The position numbers and the translations under genes were made by a program. A stretch of DNA of 64,000 nt from Flavobacteriales bacterium ALC-1 (GTDB taxonomy: Bacteria > Bacteroidota > Bacteroidia > Flavobacteriales > Flavobacteriaceae). The stretch lies in assembly GCA_000171875.1 (NCBI GenBank), contig ABHI01000002.1, positions 434,001 through 498,000 on the forward strand, in the 5' to 3' direction. The notes below the pieces were generated by a model. That model saw only the letters and a list, made by a program, of their open reading frames with translations, made no database searches and was not told the DNA's origin. Below, piece after piece: positions 6,716 to 14,889 of the stretch. Every line of letters starts with the position of its first letter. Positions within the stretch are counted from its first letter, which is position 1.

Positions 6716-7417
6716 TTATGAAGCAATATACTTTTTATAATAAGCCAATAGCTCATCAGCTGAAGCACCAAACCAGCGTTTTACATAAATGGCCCAAAAG
6801 TGGTACTGCAGTTTCCAAATTCCTATTGTTTTATAGAGTCTGGCTGAGGTTCTGATTTTTTTATTGATAACGACAAATTGCTTTCTTGCATAAAGTTCAT
6901 TGATGAGGATATTATCTTCATATATAATGTAGCTTTCATCATAACCACCAATGGTATCAAATAAGTCTCGTGTTATAAACTGACTTTGATCACCTCCTCT
7001 ACAAGCGCGCCAAGAAAATTGTGTTAACCAACTTGCTAAGCGTAACCACCAATGGTTGCTGTCAAACTGCATTCTAAAACAACCAGCTTTATTTCCTTTG
7101 TTGACTTCGTCTAAAATGAGTTGATCATAGCGATGAGGTGGAAAGGAGTCGGCATGTAAAAAATAAAAAATATTCCCTTTAGCATGCTTAGCACCAAGAT
7201 TCATTTGCTTAGCTCTCCCTTTATCCGAGTTAAGAAGTACAATGTTTAAATCTAAGGACTTTACAATGTCTTGAGTGCCATCAGTACTACCACCATCTAC
7301 AACAATTAGTTCTGAAATTGAATGTAGTGAAGCATTATCAATAAGGTGAAAGAGTAAGTCTTTTATGGTTGCTGACTCGTTTAAAACAGGAATTATTATA
7401 GAGATTCTATATGCCAT
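6716..7417 (-). CDS. TIGR04283-type glycosyltransferase 2, arsenosugar biosynthesis
   Basis: About 233 residues, a compact GT2 fold: ISIIIPVLNESATI at the start, VVDGGSTDGTQDIV (the nucleotide-sugar DxD-region motif), FYFLHADSFPP, and a GGDQSQF segment that fits TIGR04283. That family, originally named rSAM-associated transferase 2, occurs with radical-SAM ArsS in arsenosugar clusters. The start is placed at the ATG at 7415-7417 (MAYRISI), because the ATG five codons upstream lies inside the edge of a palindromic repeat. It is the last gene of the minus-strand arsenic island and probably adds or processes the sugar part, or builds a lipid-linked sugar. It is separated from the core operon by three genes. 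Confidence 0.82.
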   Translation of the reverse strand: MAYRISIIIPVLNESATIKDLLFHLIDNASLHSISELIVVDGGSTDGTQDIVKSLDLNIVLLNSDKGRAKQMNLGAKHAKGNIFYFLHADSFPPHRYDQLILDEVNKGNKAGCFRMQFDSNHWWLRLASWLTQFSWRACRGGDQSQFITRDLFDTIGGYDESYIIYEDNILINELYARKQFVVINKKIRTSARLYKTIGIWKLQYHFWAIYVKRWFGASADELLAYYKKYIAS

Positions 7418-7427
7418 ACTTTTATGT

Positions 7428-7505
7428 GTCATTGCGAAGCTTTTGTAAAAAGCTGTAGCAATCTGTTTAATGAGATTACCACGTCACTTCGTTCCTCGTA
7501 ATGAC
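7428..7505. repeat. Intergenic palindromic repeat (REP-like element)
   Basis: The ends are inverted copies (GTCATTGCGA at 7428 and TCGTAATGAC ending at 7505, one mismatch), with AGCAATCT and AGATTACC as inner complementary arms. The motif CATTGCGAGGAACGAAG and its partner are familiar from dispersed intergenic repeats in Flavobacteriaceae genomes. The element fills the gap between the DUF547 gene and the glycosyltransferase and would fold into a long hairpin in the transcript. Confidence 0.8.
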
Positions 7506-7515
7506 AGGTTGTGTT

Positions 7516-8433
7516 TTAGTTATTTAAGTCCCAATTATAATCTTTGAAGCTTTTTTTAGCCTTATTAGAAATGACAACTTCAGAATATCCATTTAAAAAA
7601 TCAATCAGGCTTCCATTCTTTTCAAAGTCTTTTTTAAACCACTTAAATATTTTTGAGAGTTTAATGTTGTTTTTTGAAAGTTCATTCTTTGAGGTGTCAG
7701 ACAAGAAGCCTTTAGTTACTCTAGATAATTGTTCTTCCAAATTCTCTGAAGTAAATGCTTCGTTCAGGAGTTTAGGACACGATTCTGAAGCGCAAACAAT
7801 CGCAAAATGAATTCTTGGTTCGTTCATCTTACGTAAAATTTTATGTTCTATATCATTAAGGTTTTGCCATTTGTCTCCAAATTTCCAAAGGCGTTGATCC
7901 CAAGGATCTTTGATCTCTTTTATGCTTTTTAATGGGTAGTTTCTAATGATTAAATCTATAGTTAAGGCATTGTAAGTATTAATCCAATAGGCTAGTTTTT
8001 CATTTTTAGATAGGCTGTCTAATTTTAGATACATTTTTTTTAGTACACTTATATAGCCAAGTAAATCTTTCTGAGAACTCTTAAAACCTTTGTAATCTAC
8101 ATTTCCATTCTGTGTAACATGCTTTTGTAATAATTCACCAAACAACTGGTGTATATAGCCTTCACGTTTAGAAACATTTTGATGAAATGTCGAATCTTCT
8201 TCTATTTCAATAGTTTCAGTGCTATCAGTTTTAACAGCAATTTGAAATTCACCTTTAGATATAGTTACTAAAGAATCTTTGTTTTTGATAATTTTTGGTG
8301 CTTCAACCGCATCAGGAACTTCTGTTACAACAGCAATTTCCTTTGTTGGTTCTGGTTGAGTTTCAATAGCTTTTTTTGTTCCACAACAAGAAGTTGCGAA
8401 AAAGGTTAAGATAAATATGAGGACTATTTTCAT
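7516..8433 (-). CDS. DUF547 domain lipoprotein
   Basis: 305 residues. A lipoprotein signal (MKIVLIFILTFFATSC) puts the lipidated cysteine at residue 16. An acidic, low-complexity linker runs to about residue 85. The DUF547 domain fills the rest: YKGFKSSQKDLLGYI, LAYWINTYNALTIDLIIRNYP (the family signature, read in parts) and RIHFAIVCASESCPKLLNEAF, with a conserved Cys pair in CASESC. DUF547 has no established reaction; the conserved His/Cys residues suggest a papain-like or metal site, which is inference. It overlaps the upstream hydroxylase gene by ATGA, so both are made from one message within the arsenosugar island. Confidence 0.85.
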   Translation of the reverse strand: MKIVLIFILTFFATSCCGTKKAIETQPEPTKEIAVVTEVPDAVEAPKIIKNKDSLVTISKGEFQIAVKTDSTETIEIEEDSTFHQNVSKREGYIHQLFGELLQKHVTQNGNVDYKGFKSSQKDLLGYISVLKKMYLKLDSLSKNEKLAYWINTYNALTIDLIIRNYPLKSIKEIKDPWDQRLWKFGDKWQNLNDIEHKILRKMNEPRIHFAIVCASESCPKLLNEAFTSENLEEQLSRVTKGFLSDTSKNELSKNNIKLSKIFKWFKKDFEKNGSLIDFLNGYSEVVISNKAKKSFKDYNWDLNN

Positions 8434-9104
8434 TTTTTTAAAGGATATAATTCCTGACTTACAAAATCTTTAGGAAATGCTTCATCGCCTTCAAAACCTA
8501 ATTCAATGTCTCTGCCATCGTATGGTACAAAATCAGTTTTAAAGAGATAATCCCAAAGACTAAGTGTTAGTCCAAAATTAACACCATACCTTACATGCTC
8601 TGGTAAACCCTTAGCATGATGCCAAATATGCATTTTTGGATTGTTGAAGATGTACTTTAAAAACCCATAATCCCAACCTAAATTTGCATGATTAAGATGA
8701 CCAATGATAATTGTAAAGAAATATATAAAGGCAACATCTTGTGGACTATAATTAGCGATAATGGCAAGTGGAATGTATTTTATAGAATTATAGACTACAG
8801 GTTCCATCCAGTGATAACGCAAATGTGCTGCAAAACCCATTTCTTTAACACTATGGTGTACTTTATGGAAATTCCATAGCCAAGATACGCGATGTAACAA
8901 ACGATGCGTATTCCATTGTACAAAATCATAGACAAAAAAGAATATAAGTAAACCTAGCCATTTCGGTAAATCTGTAGAGTCAAATAACTGAAAATTAGAA
9001 AGTGAAAGTCCTAAAATACTTAATATATCATTTAAAAATTCAGCGGCTGTTTTAGATAATGCAATGAGCACAATTAAATTCAATAGAAAAAAATTGAAAA
9101 ACAT
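8430..9104 (-). CDS. Sterol desaturase/fatty acid hydroxylase family membrane protein (start uncertain)
   Basis: 224 residues from the first ATG, but the gene very likely begins upstream (see the 9105-9320 entry). Histidine boxes of the di-iron fatty acid hydroxylase superfamily are present in order: HRLLH, HKVHH, a HLNH segment and HIWHH near the C-terminus, between several hydrophobic helices (LIFFFVYDFV, YIPLAIIANY, VAFIYFFTIIIG). Members use O2 and a di-iron centre to hydroxylate or desaturate lipids in the cytoplasmic membrane. The stop overlaps the DUF547 start (ATGA). Sitting between ArsM/PiT and a glycosyltransferase, it may modify a lipid carrier or an arsenolipid; that is speculation. 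Confidence 0.85.
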   Translation of the reverse strand: MFFNFFLLNLIVLIALSKTAAEFLNDILSILGLSLSNFQLFDSTDLPKWLGLLIFFFVYDFVQWNTHRLLHRVSWLWNFHKVHHSVKEMGFAAHLRYHWMEPVVYNSIKYIPLAIIANYSPQDVAFIYFFTIIIGHLNHANLGWDYGFLKYIFNNPKMHIWHHAKGLPEHVRYGVNFGLTLSLWDYLFKTDFVPYDGRDIELGFEGDEAFPKDFVSQELYPLKK

Positions 9105-9320: not shown

Positions 9321-10436
9321 TTAAGTTAAAGTTTCTAGCAATTTATACAATAAACCACTTACAATTGCTGCCATTGGCAGTGTTAGTAACCAAGATAACA
9401 ATATTTTACTAATCATTTTATAATTGGCCTTTTTTGTTGCCGTACCAATACCAAATATTGATCCAACTGAAACATGAGTTGTAGAAACTGGCATGCCATG
9501 AAAACTAGCTGTAGTTACTAATAAACCCGTAATTAAATTAGCTGTAAACCCTTGACCTGAATTCATTGGTGTGATTTTTTTACTCATCGTTATGCCAACT
9601 TTCTTAGCGTTTACTAATCCTCCTAGAGCAATTACTATAGCTATAATAATCATACTTATTTTTATATCTATGGCATTTATAATAACTAATAGCCCAACAA
9701 TCTTTGGTGTATCATTTAGACCTCTTGCAAAGCTTACGATTCCTGCACTTATATAGTGAAGTGTATCTAATACTTTTTGAGAGTTTAATCCAAGAATTTG
9801 ACCTTCATAGGTTTCTATTTCATTTTCAATTGTAGCTTTGATAGTAGTTGAAGATTTTAAACTTGCGGCATTGTCCATTTGTAATGAAGCAACAGAAAGC
9901 GATTGTTCTTCATGAATATTTAAGGTTGTTGATTTAGTGACTCCAAATTGTTTTCGGAGAAACCTAAATATGAGATAAGCAATTAAACTTACAACAGCAG
10001 CCATTAATGGACTAACTATTAATGGTACTAAGAATTTATCTAATAGTTTATCGAAATTAAATTGAGAACCAACTGCTACAACTCCAGCTCCGAATAATGC
10101 ACCGACTAAACTATGTGTTGTAGATATTGGCATACCAATTTTAGTAGCAATAAAAACAGTTAAGGCTGCACCAAAAGCAATAGAAATGGCAAAAATAGGA
10201 ACTGTTATTAAGTCGTCTGGCACTAAGCCTTTACCAGAAAAGTTTTTCACCAATTCATTAGCCAAAAAAATAGCAGCGACTGAGCCAGATAATGTTGTAA
10301 CTGTTGCCCAGTTGATCGCTTTTTTAAAGTTTGTAGTGCCACTTCCGAAGAGTGTTGCAACTCCTTTGAAATTATCATTGGCGCCATTACTATAGGCTAA
10401 AAAACAGGCTGAAATAAATAAAAGAGTAAGAATCAT
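9321..10436 (-). CDS. PiT family inorganic phosphate permease
   Basis: 371 residues of an integral membrane protein built from two inverted PiT repeats. The first signature, YSNGANDNFKGVATL, is near residue 15; the second, SFARGLNDTPKIVGLL, near residue 240. Both GANDxxK/GLNDxxK motifs bind phosphate and cation. A short soluble loop (about 165-215) divides the halves. PiT carriers are low-affinity, proton or sodium coupled and take up arsenate as well as phosphate, which makes the neighbouring arsenic genes meaningful. The gene follows the terminator after arsM and reads directly into the hydroxylase frame, so it probably starts the second half of the island. Confidence 0.9.
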   Translation of the reverse strand: MILTLLFISACFLAYSNGANDNFKGVATLFGSGTTNFKKAINWATVTTLSGSVAAIFLANELVKNFSGKGLVPDDLITVPIFAISIAFGAALTVFIATKIGMPISTTHSLVGALFGAGVVAVGSQFNFDKLLDKFLVPLIVSPLMAAVVSLIAYLIFRFLRKQFGVTKSTTLNIHEEQSLSVASLQMDNAASLKSSTTIKATIENEIETYEGQILGLNSQKVLDTLHYISAGIVSFARGLNDTPKIVGLLVIINAIDIKISMIIIAIVIALGGLVNAKKVGITMSKKITPMNSGQGFTANLITGLLVTTASFHGMPVSTTHVSVGSIFGIGTATKKANYKMISKILLSWLLTLPMAAIVSGLLYKLLETLT

Positions 10437-10552: not shown

Positions 10553-11521
10553 TTAACAACAGCCTCCACCATCATAATGAAACGTGGATTCACTAAAATA
10601 AATATCATTTCTACCTAAAGCTTGTAAAGCACCTGCGGTTTTATCACAAATAGCCAAAGGTTGATTCTTTAATAAAACATGACCAGCCTTATCATCTAAA
10701 TAATCGTCGTCTCCATAGTAAATTGCAGCTTTGCCAGTAAAGATACAAGGACCATCAGCTGGCATAGGGTCTTTAATGGCTGCAACTTCGATAGACTCGA
10801 TATAAATTAATTCATCTGTTGGGTAATTTTTAGGATCTAGAATTCTGTAGGGTTTACGAGCTCTAATTTCTATAGTACCAAAACCAGCATCAGTTAATGC
10901 TTTTACGTACTCAGCAATTGGTAAACTTCCACTAAGACAAAGTGCTCTAAGTCTATCATCATTCCGTAATTCATCATTCATAGGCTGCTCACAAGTAGGA
11001 TCACTCATCACTAAACGCCCATGGGGTTTTAAAACACGATACATTTCTGCAATAGCTTTCTTTAAATCTTCAGCTTTAAATATGTTGAACAGACAATTTT
11101 GAGCAGCTACATCAATACTGTTATCTTCAACCGGAAGATTCATAGCATCTCCTTTTTTAAGCTCTACAAATTCAGACTTAAACCAATCATTTTGTTCCTC
11201 AGCTTCTTTAAAATTTTTTCTTGATGCTTCTAACATTTCATCGACAACATCAATACCAATAACTCCACCTTTTTGTCTGTTGAAATATGAAAATTGCAAT
11301 AATTCCATACCACCTCCAACACCAACATAAAGCATTTTTGGATTATTGGTCAAATCACGAGCATGCACTGTAGAACCACAACCGTAATTCATCTCTTGCA
11401 TTATTCTTGGGATTTTTAATCCAGGTAATTCCCAAATAGGGTTGGTAGTACAGCATAAACCAACATCTGGTGTTAGTGCTGCTTCTTTGTATAAGGTGTT
11501 TGTGGCTTCTAAATAGCTCAT
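10553..11521 (-). CDS. arsM: Arsenite methyltransferase of the arsenosugar pathway
   Basis: 322 residues. The SAM-binding motif VGVGGGMELL and the following acidic loop (VIGIDVVDEML) mark a class I methyltransferase; MYRVLKPHGRLVMSDP is the post-motif strand usual in ArsM. Cysteines suited to bind trivalent arsenic are at 23-24 (LCCTTNP), in QNCLFNIF and in LRALCLSG; the chain ends in GGGCC. ArsM uses SAM to turn arsenite into methyl- and dimethylarsenicals in the cytoplasm. In the arsenosugar branch dimethylarsenite is the substrate handed to ArsS. It is the last gene of the core operon, three bases after the phosphorylase gene and 24 bases before a terminator. Confidence 0.9.
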   Translation of the reverse strand: MSYLEATNTLYKEAALTPDVGLCCTTNPIWELPGLKIPRIMQEMNYGCGSTVHARDLTNNPKMLYVGVGGGMELLQFSYFNRQKGGVIGIDVVDEMLEASRKNFKEAEEQNDWFKSEFVELKKGDAMNLPVEDNSIDVAAQNCLFNIFKAEDLKKAIAEMYRVLKPHGRLVMSDPTCEQPMNDELRNDDRLRALCLSGSLPIAEYVKALTDAGFGTIEIRARKPYRILDPKNYPTDELIYIESIEVAAIKDPMPADGPCIFTGKAAIYYGDDDYLDDKAGHVLLKNQPLAICDKTAGALQALGRNDIYFSESTFHYDGGGCC

Positions 11522-11524
11522 GTA

Positions 11525-12337
11525 CTATAATGTTTTTATTAATTCTTTAAAAAGGGTTATCATATCAGGTTCTGCTTTACCTGCCATTGCAATAATTTCT
11601 GCAATATCTACAGGTTTTAGATTATTTGGGTCGCATTCATCAGTCAAAACTGACACTGCAGCAGCTTTTAAATTTAAATGATTGGCAACTATAATTTCAG
11701 GAACAGTACTCATACCTACAGCATCAGAACCTATAATTTTAAGCATTCTATATTCTGCTCTAGTTTCTAATTGAGGTCCAACTACAGATGCATAAACTCC
11801 TTTGTGTAATTTTATTTTATTCGATTTGGCGATACTTTCAAATTTTGCATTGATCTCAGTATCATAAGGTGCACTCATATCAGTAAAGCGTTCGCCTAAT
11901 TCTGAAACTCCTTTAAATGCTAAAGGCGAACCACCTTGTAAATTGATATGGTCATCGATGAGCATTAATTCTCCCTTTTTAAAGTTTAAATTAATAGCAC
12001 CAGCAGCATTAGAAACTAATAAGGTTTTAATACCAAGCTTTTCCATAATGCGAACAGGAAATGTTACATCTTGTAAACTGTAACCTTCATAAACATGAAA
12101 ACGACCTTGCATTACCACGACCTTTTTTCCTGCTAATAATCCATAAATTAATTTACCTTTATGAAACTCTACAGTTGCAGTAGGGAAATTCGGGATATGA
12201 TTGTAACTCGCTTCAGCAATAATCTCAATTTCATCAATAAGCTGTCCTAATCCTGTACCTAGGATAATACCAACTTCTGGGTTTTCAAAACCTTTGCTTT
12301 GTAAATATTCAGTACTCTCTGTAATAAATTTAATCAT
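11525..12337 (-). CDS. Purine nucleoside phosphorylase (trimeric PNP family) in the arsenosugar operon
   Basis: 270 residues, a PNP/MTAP family enzyme: GIILGTGLGQL, VVMQGRFHVYEGYS (phosphate and ribose contacts), LLVSNAAGAIN, VVGPQLETRAEYRML (Glu191 equals human Glu201). In most hypoxanthine/guanine-type enzymes the next motif reads S-x-x-T-N; here it is SVLTDECD with Asp233 where Asn243 is expected, a residue that in MTAP and engineered PNP favours 6-amino purines. That fits release of adenine from dimethylarsinoyl-deoxyadenosine, the ArsS product, but the change may also be normal for Bacteroidota. Ends eight bases inside the transferase gene upstream, so co-translated. Confidence 0.85.
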   Translation of the reverse strand: MIKFITESTEYLQSKGFENPEVGIILGTGLGQLIDEIEIIAEASYNHIPNFPTATVEFHKGKLIYGLLAGKKVVVMQGRFHVYEGYSLQDVTFPVRIMEKLGIKTLLVSNAAGAINLNFKKGELMLIDDHINLQGGSPLAFKGVSELGERFTDMSAPYDTEINAKFESIAKSNKIKLHKGVYASVVGPQLETRAEYRMLKIIGSDAVGMSTVPEIIVANHLNLKAAAVSVLTDECDPNNLKPVDIAEIIAMAGKAEPDMITLFKELIKTL

Positions 12338-12941
12338 TTTGTAAAATGAAACTTTTTAATGTTTGATTATGTTTTATATCGTCGTAAGTATCAATATCAT
12401 TTAATTCATCTAGCAAAAATACACTTTCGCTTTTTAAATCTTCTAATGTGTCTTTTCGAACAGTTTCTGTTCCCCAAGCTTTATTTTTAAAAACTTCTGG
12501 GTATAAATTTTTCATACCTAATAAATAATAACCTCCATCTTCGGCAGGGCCAATTACAACATTGTAGTTGTCTAATTTGTTTAAAGCTTTTTCTATATAC
12601 TTTGCTTCTAAATCAAATAAGTCGCTTCCAACAATTACTATTTTTTCATAATTATCCTCAAATCCATTCTTAAAGGCATTTAGCATTCTAATTCCTAAAT
12701 CTTCGCCTTCTTGCTGGTATTTTTGATAAATAGATGAATCCCAAATGTCATCCGCTCTTAGTTGTACTGAATAATAGATGGCCTTATCGGAATTGATATT
12801 TCTAATGGTTTTTTCAGTGTGCTCTAGAAGAAATTTGTAAATATTTAGTGCAGCTTCGTCACCTATAGTTTTTGCTAATCTAGTTTTTACTTTTCCAAGT
12901 TCAGGATTACGAGTAAAAACAATAATTAAATTTTTATTCAT
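12330..12941 (-). CDS. TIGR04282-type transferase, arsenosugar biosynthesis (DUF2064)
   Basis: 203 residues. The opening LIIVFTRNPELGKVKTRLAK is the nucleotide-binding signature of the DUF2064/TIGR04282 family, named rSAM/selenodomain-associated transferase 1; VIVGSDLFDLEAKYI and VVIGPAEDGGYYLLGM supply the metal and donor contacts of a GT-A nucleotidyltransferase-like fold. The family travels with ArsS and TIGR04283. Its reaction is not proven; a sugar- or glycerol-transfer step after adenine removal is the common suggestion. It overlaps the rhodanese gene by eight bases upstream and the phosphorylase gene by eight downstream. Confidence 0.85.
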   Translation of the reverse strand: MNKNLIIVFTRNPELGKVKTRLAKTIGDEAALNIYKFLLEHTEKTIRNINSDKAIYYSVQLRADDIWDSSIYQKYQQEGEDLGIRMLNAFKNGFEDNYEKIVIVGSDLFDLEAKYIEKALNKLDNYNVVIGPAEDGGYYLLGMKNLYPEVFKNKAWGTETVRKDTLEDLKSESVFLLDELNDIDTYDDIKHNQTLKSFILQND

Positions 12942-13425
12942 AAACTTTCACTCCTTTAAGAAGCCATTGGCTCCACTCCTTAGAAAATGCATGTACATTT
13001 TCGGTTTCTCCTTCAGAATTGTAGACTTTAAAGTCATTATTTTTCCATTCAAAAATGCCACCATAAAGATTGAATACATTGGTGTATCCTTCTTTTGTAA
13101 GTTGTTCTGCTATATCTTCAGAACGAACACCTAAAGAACAATACACCACTATCTTAGTTGATTTGTCAGTGACAATTTTAGTGACTGTTGAAATTTCAAA
13201 ATTATCATAGCCTACGTGAATTCCATTTTTAAGATGACTAACACCAAATTCATTAAATTCTCTTGCATCTAGAAGAATGGCTTCAGTCTTTGGCATTGCT
13301 AATTCTTGTACTGTAATATAAGGTACGCTTTCGGTATTGTATTTTTCTAGTAACTCAGATAGTGAGTTTTGAGAAAACACAAAGCTAGAAATAAAGATAA
13401 ATATGTAAAAAAAAGTTCTTTTCAT
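12934..13425 (-). CDS. Exported rhodanese-like sulfurtransferase
   Basis: About 163 residues. The start is set at the ATG at 13423-13425 (MKRTFFYIFIFISSFVFSQ), which begins a signal peptide; a TTG three codons earlier overlaps the arsS stop. One rhodanese domain follows, with AILLDAREFNEFGVSHL and the active loop VVYCSLGVRSEDI, Cys96 being the persulfide-forming residue. Export to the periplasm is unusual for a protein nested in a cytoplasmic pathway: it may handle sulfur or thiol chemistry of arsenicals outside the cytoplasm. One base separates it from arsS. Confidence 0.85.
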   Translation of the reverse strand: MKRTFFYIFIFISSFVFSQNSLSELLEKYNTESVPYITVQELAMPKTEAILLDAREFNEFGVSHLKNGIHVGYDNFEISTVTKIVTDKSTKIVVYCSLGVRSEDIAEQLTKEGYTNVFNLYGGIFEWKNNDFKVYNSEGETENVHAFSKEWSQWLLKGVKVYE

Positions 13426-13426
13426 A

Positions 13427-14482
13427 TTAAGCAACTACACCTTGACAACTACTTCCTGCACCAGCTGTACAGCCATAGCAGTGCTGTGAAATGACTATAT
13501 TTCGACCTTCTAGTAGTTCTTCATTATATTCAGAAATATGTTTCACTTTACTGTTCACAGGTAATTCTAACATCTGGTTAAAATCACAATCAAATAAATA
13601 GCCATCCCAACTTACTGAAAGTGTGTTAGTGCACATCACATTTTCAACAGCTGCAGGATTATAAGCTTCAACAAGTGAATACATATAATCTTCATAGTTT
13701 TCTGAAGCAATTAAATAATCCAAAAATCGACTGATTGGTAAATTTGTAATCGCAAACAAATTATGAAATTGAATACCAAAATCTTCCATCAACGCCTTTT
13801 TGAAATCTTTCTCCATGGATGCTTGGTCACCTGGTAAAAATGCACCAGAAGGATTATAAACCAAATCCAATCGTAAATCACTGTCAGGTATGCCGTAGCC
13901 AACAGCATTTAATTCTTGTAATGCCTTTATAGACTTGTCAAAAACACCATCACCACGTTGTTTGTCTGTTTTTCCACGTGTCCAGTGTGGCATTGAACTC
14001 ACAACATGTACATTGTGTTTTTTAAAGAATTCAGGTAAATCGTAATATTTTTTATTCGCTCTAATAATCGTTAAGTTAGAACGTACAATAAAATCTTTTA
14101 TTCCGGCTTTAGAAGCTTCTTCTACAAACCATCTAAAGTCCGGATTCATTTCTGGAGCACCACCAGTTAAATCTAAAGTATGGGCTCCTGTATTTTTAAT
14201 CACCTCAAGACATTGTCTCATAGTGTCGCGCGTCATGATTTCTTTGCGATCAGGACCAGCATCTACATGGCAATGGTCGCAAACTTGGTTGCACATATAA
14301 CCAACATTAATTTGAAGAATTTCAAGTTTCTTCGCTTTTAAAGGGAACTGACTTGTTTCAGAAATCTTAGCTTTAAAAGTTGGTAATTCTCCATCTTGAA
14401 AAATACCGTTAGACAAAATTTCTAATTGTCTATTACTTTTTGCTAAATCGCTATCGCGTTTTTTTAGGGACTTTGTTGCCAT
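13427..14482 (-). CDS. arsS: Arsenosugar biosynthesis radical SAM protein
   Basis: 351 residues from the ATG at 14480-14482. The longer open frame (24 more codons) runs through a palindromic repeat and is not coding in my view. The radical SAM cluster motif is CNQVCDHC at residues 64-71 (CxxxCxxC), followed by HTLDLTGGAPEMNP, the GGxP-type SAM contact. The C-terminal part has CTNTLSVSWDGYLFDCDFNQM and a final HCYGCTAGAGSSC, an auxiliary-cluster-like domain (DUF3641). ArsS attaches the 5'-deoxyadenosyl group of SAM to dimethylarsenite, giving the precursor of oxo-arsenosugars. Second gene of the operon, after the AhpD-like protein. Confidence 0.9.
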   Translation of the reverse strand: MATKSLKKRDSDLAKSNRQLEILSNGIFQDGELPTFKAKISETSQFPLKAKKLEILQINVGYMCNQVCDHCHVDAGPDRKEIMTRDTMRQCLEVIKNTGAHTLDLTGGAPEMNPDFRWFVEEASKAGIKDFIVRSNLTIIRANKKYYDLPEFFKKHNVHVVSSMPHWTRGKTDKQRGDGVFDKSIKALQELNAVGYGIPDSDLRLDLVYNPSGAFLPGDQASMEKDFKKALMEDFGIQFHNLFAITNLPISRFLDYLIASENYEDYMYSLVEAYNPAAVENVMCTNTLSVSWDGYLFDCDFNQMLELPVNSKVKHISEYNEELLEGRNIVISQHCYGCTAGAGSSCQGVVA

Positions 14483-14505
14483 GTATTTATATAAAAGTTG
14501 TCTCC

Positions 14506-14546
14506 TCGAGCGCAGTCGAGAGGTTTTAGGTCTCGACTGCGCTCGA
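14506..14546. repeat. Perfect inverted repeat between the AhpD-like gene and arsS
   Basis: Arms of 16 bases, TCGAGCGCAGTCGAGA (14506-14521) and its exact complement (14531-14546), with a 9-base loop and a partly paired extension TGTCT/AGACA outside. This is the CTCGACTGCGCTCGA type of dispersed intergenic palindrome seen in Flavobacteriaceae. It is far richer in G+C than its surroundings and creates a false N-terminal extension for arsS. Confidence 0.85.
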
Positions 14547-14553
14547 CCAGACA

Positions 14554-14889
14554 TTACCCATCTAATTTATTAACCTTGTTCATCATTTGCACACCATGTA
14601 CTAAAGTAGCTCCACTCTTTATAGCAGCACCAACATGTATCGCTTCCATCATTTCTTCTTTAGTAACCCCACGTTGCAAACCATCTTTTGTATAAGCATC
14701 TATACAATATGGACATTGTTCTGTATGAGCAACAGCCAAAGCAATAAGTGATTTTTCGCGAGCAGATAAGGCACCTTCTTCAAATACTTTTCCATAATAT
14801 TCAAAAAATTTGTTACCTAACTCTTCACTCCATTCTGTTATTTTTCCAAATTTTCTTAAATCAGCTGGATCGTAATACGTCTTTGACAT
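14554..14889 (-). CDS. Arsenosugar biosynthesis-associated AhpD-like peroxidase homologue
   Basis: 111 residues, one carboxymuconolactone decarboxylase/AhpD domain. The redox motif HTEQCPYCIDAY places the CxxC pair at Cys59 and Cys62 with the proton-relay histidines nearby (AVAHTEQ and EAIHVGAA). The sequence agrees with the TIGR04169 family, which is restricted to arsenosugar clusters. It may reduce a peroxide or keep an arsenic or thiol intermediate reduced; the actual reaction is unknown. First gene of the operon; the 131-base gap to xdhC must hold the promoter. Confidence 0.85.
   Translation of the reverse strand: MSKTYYDPADLRKFGKITEWSEELGNKFFEYYGKVFEEGALSAREKSLIALAVAHTEQCPYCIDAYTKDGLQRGVTKEEMMEAIHVGAAIKSGATLVHGVQMMNKVNKLDG

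Follow-up and report, generated by a model that had tools for sequence, protein, structure and literature searches.

A trimeric-type purine nucleoside phosphorylase with a hydrophobic 5' site in a bacterial arsenosugar gene cluster: probable action on an arsenic nucleoside

Arsenosugars, a group of organic arsenic compounds, are widely found in algae and in food from the sea, and their pathway is started by ArsM and ArsS. In Flavobacteriales bacterium ALC-1, a gene for a trimeric-type purine nucleoside phosphorylase (PNP; the protein is here called P0001) is situated among genes of this kind, which raises the question of what a nucleoside phosphorylase would split there and how far its active site gives the answer. 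The original prediction, made from the window (i.e., the whole stretch of 64,000 nucleotides analysed here, positions 434,001 to 498,000 of contig ABHI01000002.1), had regarded an Asp in the base site as the mark of an adenine-accepting enzyme serving the arsenosugar pathway. The linkage to ars genes on which it built is well founded: The cluster markers ArsM, ArsS, TIGR04282 and TIGR04283, as well as TIGR04169, all match above their curated cut-offs in the window, all genes of the cluster lie on the same strand (Table 1), and the start of the PNP gene overlaps the end of the TIGR04282 gene by 8 bases. Concerning ArsS, many homologues match the window protein only from residue about 25, such that its first start codon appears to be set too early and the real start may lie about 24 codons later.

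Table 1. Genes of the arsenosugar cluster in the window, and loci that keep the module in genomes with neither ArsS nor arsenosugar-type ArsM
Feature	Position or locus	Strand	Basis or remark
TIGR04283 family GT2 glycosyltransferase	6716-7432	minus	above curated cut-off
DUF547 protein	7516-8433	minus	profile match; relatives in L244, L247, L248, L249, L250
Fatty acid hydroxylase / sterol desaturase family	8430-9104	minus	profile match; relatives in L246, L247
PHO4-type phosphate transporter	9321-10436	minus	profile match; relatives in L247, L248 clusters
ArsM, arsenosugar type (AsSugarArsM, NF038099)	10553-11521	minus	above curated cut-off
Trimeric-type purine nucleoside phosphorylase (PNP; P0001)	11525-12337	minus	270 aa ORF, family scores, fold
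TIGR04282 / DUF2064 protein, CofC-like	12330-12941	minus	profile matches, predicted nucleotidyltransferase-like fold
Rhodanese-domain protein (NF045521)	12934-13434	minus	profile match
ArsS radical SAM enzyme (TIGR04167)	13427-14554	minus	above curated cut-off
AhpD-like protein (TIGR04169)	14554-14889	minus	above curated cut-off
Module without ArsS and arsenosugar-type ArsM	L150, L151, L152, L155, L157, L158		

P0001 scores above the curated cut-offs of PRK08202 (339.1 vs 218 bits) and TIGR01697 (293.3 vs 197.1 bits), just under that of the inosine/guanosine-specific PNP model TIGR01700 (289.3 vs 293.35 bits), and far under that of the MTAP model TIGR01694 (90.8 vs 274.85 bits). On its predicted model (pLDDT 89), solved PNPs superpose over 257-270 residues among the 50 matches listed, with values of Z 41.3 and 1.3 A for 4m1e and of Z 37.7 and 1.6 A for human 3k8o. 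The nearest solved trimeric PNPs of the PRK08202/TIGR01697 type are those of Planctomyces limnophilus (4m1e), Bacteroides fragilis (8swt), and Spirosoma linguale (4lna). P0001 shares with the solved trimeric enzymes the fold, the base-site Glu, and the conserved residues His81, Tyr83, Glu84 and Met209, which presumably correspond to His86, Tyr88, Glu89 and Met219 of human PNP; with the three nearest structures it also shares the Asp at position 233. It differs from 8swt, which possesses His at the 5'-hydroxyl site, by an Ile at this place, and from known trimeric PNPs by its location in an arsenosugar module.

Concerning the base site, alignment with human PNP (chain 1m73) places Asp233, situated in the motif LTDEC, at human Asn243, and alignment with human MTAP (1cb0) places it in the TDYD motif, such that the Asp originally assigned to this site by eye is confirmed. 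The accompanying notion that Asp reads 6-aminopurines is borne out as well, as far as the excerpts of the sources go: Exchange of Asn for Asp leads to the use of adenosine in the PNP of K. lactis (N256D; PMC5074518), human N243D, as cited in the same paper, likewise takes adenosine, and the human double mutant Glu201Gln:Asn243Asp splits adenosine-based prodrugs (PMC2799393). The proposed likeness to the MTAP base site holds for one of its residues: Whereas Asp233 agrees with MTAP, Glu191 aligns with Glu201 of human PNP, where MTAP has Ser, and the surrounding motif is TDEC in P0001 vs TDYD in MTAP. A Glu occupies this position in all 162 PNPs of the tree described below. Judged from the alignment, Glu191, as in 6-oxopurine enzymes, is evidence against a role on an arsenic nucleoside. 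For the PNP of B. fragilis, which combines Asp with His, a measured adenosine activity was not found in the literature listing.

Concerning the 5' site, Ile245 aligns with His257 of human PNP and with a Val of MTAP, i.e., P0001 resembles MTAP in having a hydrophobic residue there. Human PNP contains two extra residues between Asn243 and His257 compared with the alignment of P0001, and other bacterial PNPs exhibit a His at the same spacing as Ile245. The last helix begins at residue 245 in the predicted model and, according to an excerpt of PMC4308819, at residue 257 in human PNP. His257 is described as touching O5' in the available part of PMC5147791, and this contact is weak in the simulations of PMC4308819.

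The Asp itself does not distinguish the arsenic-linked enzymes. It is present at position 233 in 232 of 233 extracted PNPs (227 of 228 distinct ones), of which 73 come from ars loci (including the window), 69 from a family sample, and 91 from a class sample; six further PNPs, truncated where the locus ends (L005, L009, L042, L043, L050, and L069), were left out. Sorted by context, all 140 distinct ars-linked PNPs, all 54 lpxK-linked ones, and 33 of the 34 others carry it, where 'other' may conceal an ars or lpxK label because the flanks of the class loci measure only about 1.5-3 kb. The family sample is assigned to Flavobacteriaceae and the class sample to Bacteroidia from the named loci among the ArsS matches, and 60 stretches of the class sample are a non-random choice, picked by hand down the match list. 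Since nearly all PNPs of the class sample have the Asp, whether ArsS is present or not, this residue is not an adaptation to arsenic, and as an arsenic-specific mark it is ruled out by the lpxK-linked and other PNPs. The step from Asp to an ars role therefore fails on the very observation that the original prediction had named as speaking against it, namely the same Asp outside ars clusters. The narrow claim that Asp233 arose as an adaptation to the arsenic pathway, which the complete set of ars-linked PNPs would fit, is already contradicted by its equal presence elsewhere and is almost certainly wrong. The near-universal Asp is no sign that the enzyme rejects adenine; it rather hints that adenine may be accepted generally by the trimeric PNPs of this class.

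The sole Asn at this position is encoded by the second of two tandem PNP genes (locus L100 of genome G014, 657-2307), which with one Asp and one Asn at 233 constitute a natural base-specificity pair.

More is gained from the phylogeny and the 5' site. In a quick tree of 162 PNPs, calculated with SH-aLRT support and no bootstrap, a branch with a support of 98 separates clade A (65 rows) from clade B (97 rows). All 77 ars-linked rows are situated in clade B and all 51 lpxK-linked rows in clade A (the identity of lpxK being based on TIGR00682, above cut-off for one representative), and 34 rows bear neither label in the DNA covered. Loci with both ars and lpxK markers were not found among those labelled. 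At residue 245, clade B has Ile in 80 sequences, Leu in 10, Val in 6, and Phe in one, with His in none of the 97; clade A has His in 28, Leu in 22, Val in 8, and Ile in 7, such that 37 of its 65 members are without His. Inside clade A, a tie between a hydrophobic residue 245 and ArsS was not significant (9/12 vs 27/49, p 0.33). Because residue 245 is hydrophobic in clade B, the corresponding human His257 contacts O5', and MTAP has Val at this place, the clade B enzymes look, from these residues, built for adenosines without a free 5'-hydroxyl, which is not proof.

The clean separation of ars and lpxK contexts in the tree also speaks against general purine salvage, i.e., against an ordinary broad PNP for adenosine and inosine that settled in the ars operon by chance. 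This explanation would agree with the Asp common to the lpxK-linked PNPs, with P0001 being the sole trimeric PNP detected in the ALC-1 genome, and with the existence of homologues of 64-82% identity to P0001 in genomes lacking ArsS; yet the four PF01048 matches of ALC-1 already include two DeoD-type phosphorylases above cut-off (besides a uridine-phosphorylase-like match below cut-off), and MTAP fills the same place in three Pseudomonadota genera (see below). Salvage by chance settlement is thus clearly improbable.

A role in the arsenosugar pathway is indicated by the gene neighbourhood. A PNP match exists in 78 of the best 80 (of 588) loci resembling the window ArsS, a choice that leans to close relatives, and the two loci without a match are pieces of 4.5-4.8 kb. 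Across the 199 family genomes, 148 possess ArsS and 175 a PNP match. Among the 150 PNP rows listed, 110 are within 15 kb of ArsS and 87 of these within 3 kb (distances from gene positions transcribed by hand), 25 belong to genomes whose ArsS is on a different contig or at a distance of more than 300 kb, and 15 to ArsS-negative genomes; 13 further ArsS-positive genomes lie outside these 150 rows. A strict dependence of the PNP on ArsS is ruled out by the 15 last-mentioned rows. In the 25 genomes with unlinked ArsS, TIGR04282 is situated directly upstream of the PNP gene in every case, TIGR04283 is near it in 23, a rhodanese in 20, and ArsM in 19 (neighbour families named via representatives). 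PNP and TIGR04282 thus remain joined as a unit where ArsS is located elsewhere.

In the 15 ArsS-negative genomes, all with a clade B PNP, arsenosugar-type ArsM was found in none (12 of the 15 are at least 90% complete, and three of three positive controls were found). The module of PNP, TIGR04282, rhodanese, and TIGR04283 is nevertheless kept in six of them (Table 1), for which decay or another substrate may be considered.

These six genomes would also agree with a rather unlikely alternative, according to which P0001 phosphorolyses 5'-deoxyadenosine from uncoupled radical SAM turnover, or MTA, and in this way relieves product inhibition of ArsS, instead of acting on the arsenic nucleoside. 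The same pocket residues would suit both compounds, and neither MTAP nor MTAN is among the four PF01048 matches of the ALC-1 genome. By-product salvage would, however, need no sugar activation, so that the tight coupling to TIGR04282 in all 25 loci with unlinked ArsS, and that to the GT2 enzyme, count against it and are left unexplained.

NCBI lists the TIGR04282 protein as a glycosyltransferase. It passes the Pfam model CofC (guanylyltransferase) with 29.1 vs 22 bits, and remains under the cut-off of the CofC equivalog TIGR03552 (32.5 vs 105 bits). Its predicted model (pLDDT 88.6) is nearest to a member of its own family, 3cgx (TIGR04282/DUF2064, Z 27.1), and further matches are the 3-phosphoglycerate guanylyltransferase 7p97 (Z 19.4, 2.5 A over 185 residues), the probable nucleotidyltransferase 2i5e (Z 18.9), and Rv2983 (Z 17.2), whereas the best glycosyltransferase among the fold matches listed is mannosylglycerate synthase with Z 13.9. 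The protein is thus like CofC and 3-phosphoglycerate guanylyltransferase in its predicted fold and its Pfam match, and unlike CofC in belonging to a family of its own. A nucleotidyltransferase fold fits the model best, although a shared fold shows no function, and the glycosyltransferase name, which many databases have copied, may denote the wrong type of enzyme. From the coupling of a nucleotidyltransferase-like protein with a phosphorylase one may suspect that the former activates the sugar-1-phosphate which the latter would release.

The median identity to counterparts in the best 80 of 588 ArsS loci is 52% for TIGR04282, 84% for PNP, 90% for ArsM, and 89% for ArsS; the low similarity of TIGR04282 may reflect fast change or replacement.

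Of the ArsS-positive genomes of the class, 10 of 32 have a linked PNP, as judged by eye from match lists. In 20 ArsS loci (12-19 kb each) of the 22 class genomes without it (G072 and G136 being left out), queries for PNP, MTAP, DeoD, and uridine-phosphorylase-like genes, a set without MTAN, gave no match, and TIGR04282 is present in nine of the 20; there the reaction would depend on a phosphorylase encoded far from ArsS. Concerning plasmids, ArsS is found in 52 records, of which 47 belong to Burkholderia and one each to Hymenobacter, Pseudanabaena, Cupriavidus, Acinetobacter, and Candidatus Thiodictyon. Among the six records examined for neighbours, MTAP accompanies TIGR04282 and TIGR04283 in three clusters, those of Acinetobacter portensis, Cupriavidus sp. 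KK10, and B. glumae BGR1; all three MTAPs score above the TIGR01694 cut-off, and MTAP thus takes the place of PNP in three of the four Pseudomonadota genera that have ArsS clusters on plasmids. The MTAP gene of Cupriavidus comes directly after TIGR04282; in Acinetobacter and B. glumae it is situated about 5-7 kb from ArsS. With the window these clusters have in common the DUF547 gene (all three), the phosphate transporter (Acinetobacter and Cupriavidus), and the sterol desaturase (Acinetobacter). After subtraction of the 47 Burkholderia records, five ArsS and 26 MTAP records among 72,509 overlap in two, where 0.002 would be expected, a post hoc statistic in which the MTAP record of Cupriavidus is counted without a listed accession. 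Phosphorolysis of a 5'-modified adenosine is supported most strongly by the occurrence of MTAP in the place that a clade B PNP takes in Flavobacteriaceae.

In the ArsS stretches of the Hymenobacter, Pseudanabaena, and Thiodictyon plasmids, no phosphorylase was found by the same queries that detect the three MTAPs, and together with the 20 class loci they rule out a linked phosphorylase as a universal part of ArsS clusters. The Hymenobacter plasmid (L244, 7318-11056) combines ArsS and TIGR04283 with two dehydrogenase/epimerase-type genes, and perhaps follows a different sugar route.

Taken together, P0001 probably phosphorolyses the arsenic nucleoside 5'-dimethylarsinoyl-5'-deoxyadenosine. ArsS would form 5'-deoxy-5'-dimethylarsinoyl-adenosine, which we take to be its exact product; P0001 would use phosphate to split this into adenine and 5-deoxy-5-dimethylarsinoyl-ribose-1-phosphate; the TIGR04282 protein would attach a nucleotide to this sugar phosphate, and transfer of the arsenosugar to an acceptor would be the task of the TIGR04283 GT2 enzyme. 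We infer all these reactions, their order, and all substrates from sequence, residues, predicted folds, neighbourhood, phylogeny, and the replacement by MTAP. The original observation was hence right, the inference drawn from Asp was wrong, and the conclusion of an adenine-accepting phosphorylase in the pathway is likely for other reasons, namely the neighbours, the clade split, the hydrophobic 5' site, and MTAP. GT2 enzymes invert. According to excerpts of the sources, oxo-arsenosugar biosynthesis involves a radical SAM enzyme that adenosylates arsenic (review, PMC12159101), nucleoside phosphorylases yield alpha-ribose-1-phosphate (PMC7226091), and arsenosugars are beta-ribosides (PMC10456119). 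An alpha product followed by an inverting transfer would therefore fit the stereochemistry of the pathway.

The phosphate transporter of the window cluster would agree with a very unlikely reading, in which the PNP uses arsenate in place of phosphate and thereby aids arsenate reduction, as mammalian PNP is stated to do in vitro in the available part of a review (PMC12608789); any PNP would do for this, and both the coupling to TIGR04282 and the hydrophobic 5' site are left unexplained by it. For phosphorolysis of the arsenic nucleoside, our limited literature search found no statement of the phosphorylase step, which the primary ArsS papers (Xue 2019, Cheng 2021) may already mention, nor, in the same literature and with those papers outside it, an enzyme assigned to the exchange of adenine for the final aglycone. 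For this exchange the present study offers named genes and an order of reactions.

It is possible, though somewhat doubtful, that the module represents a general route from 5'-modified adenosines to glycosides, in which a clade B PNP, or in Pseudomonadota MTAP, performs the phosphorolysis, TIGR04282 activates the product with a nucleotide, and TIGR04283 transfers it with inversion. Different phosphorylases would then have been recruited in two separate assemblies of the route, which, where ArsS and arsenosugar-type ArsM are missing from the genome, may serve a non-arsenic 5'-deoxyadenosyl compound.

In three loci (L248 13446-14918, L249 11087-12484, and L250 9514-10893), a second radical SAM protein, weakly TrsS-like with scores below the cut-off, is situated beside DUF547; in Roseomonas it is found together with TIGR04282 and without ArsS above cut-off.
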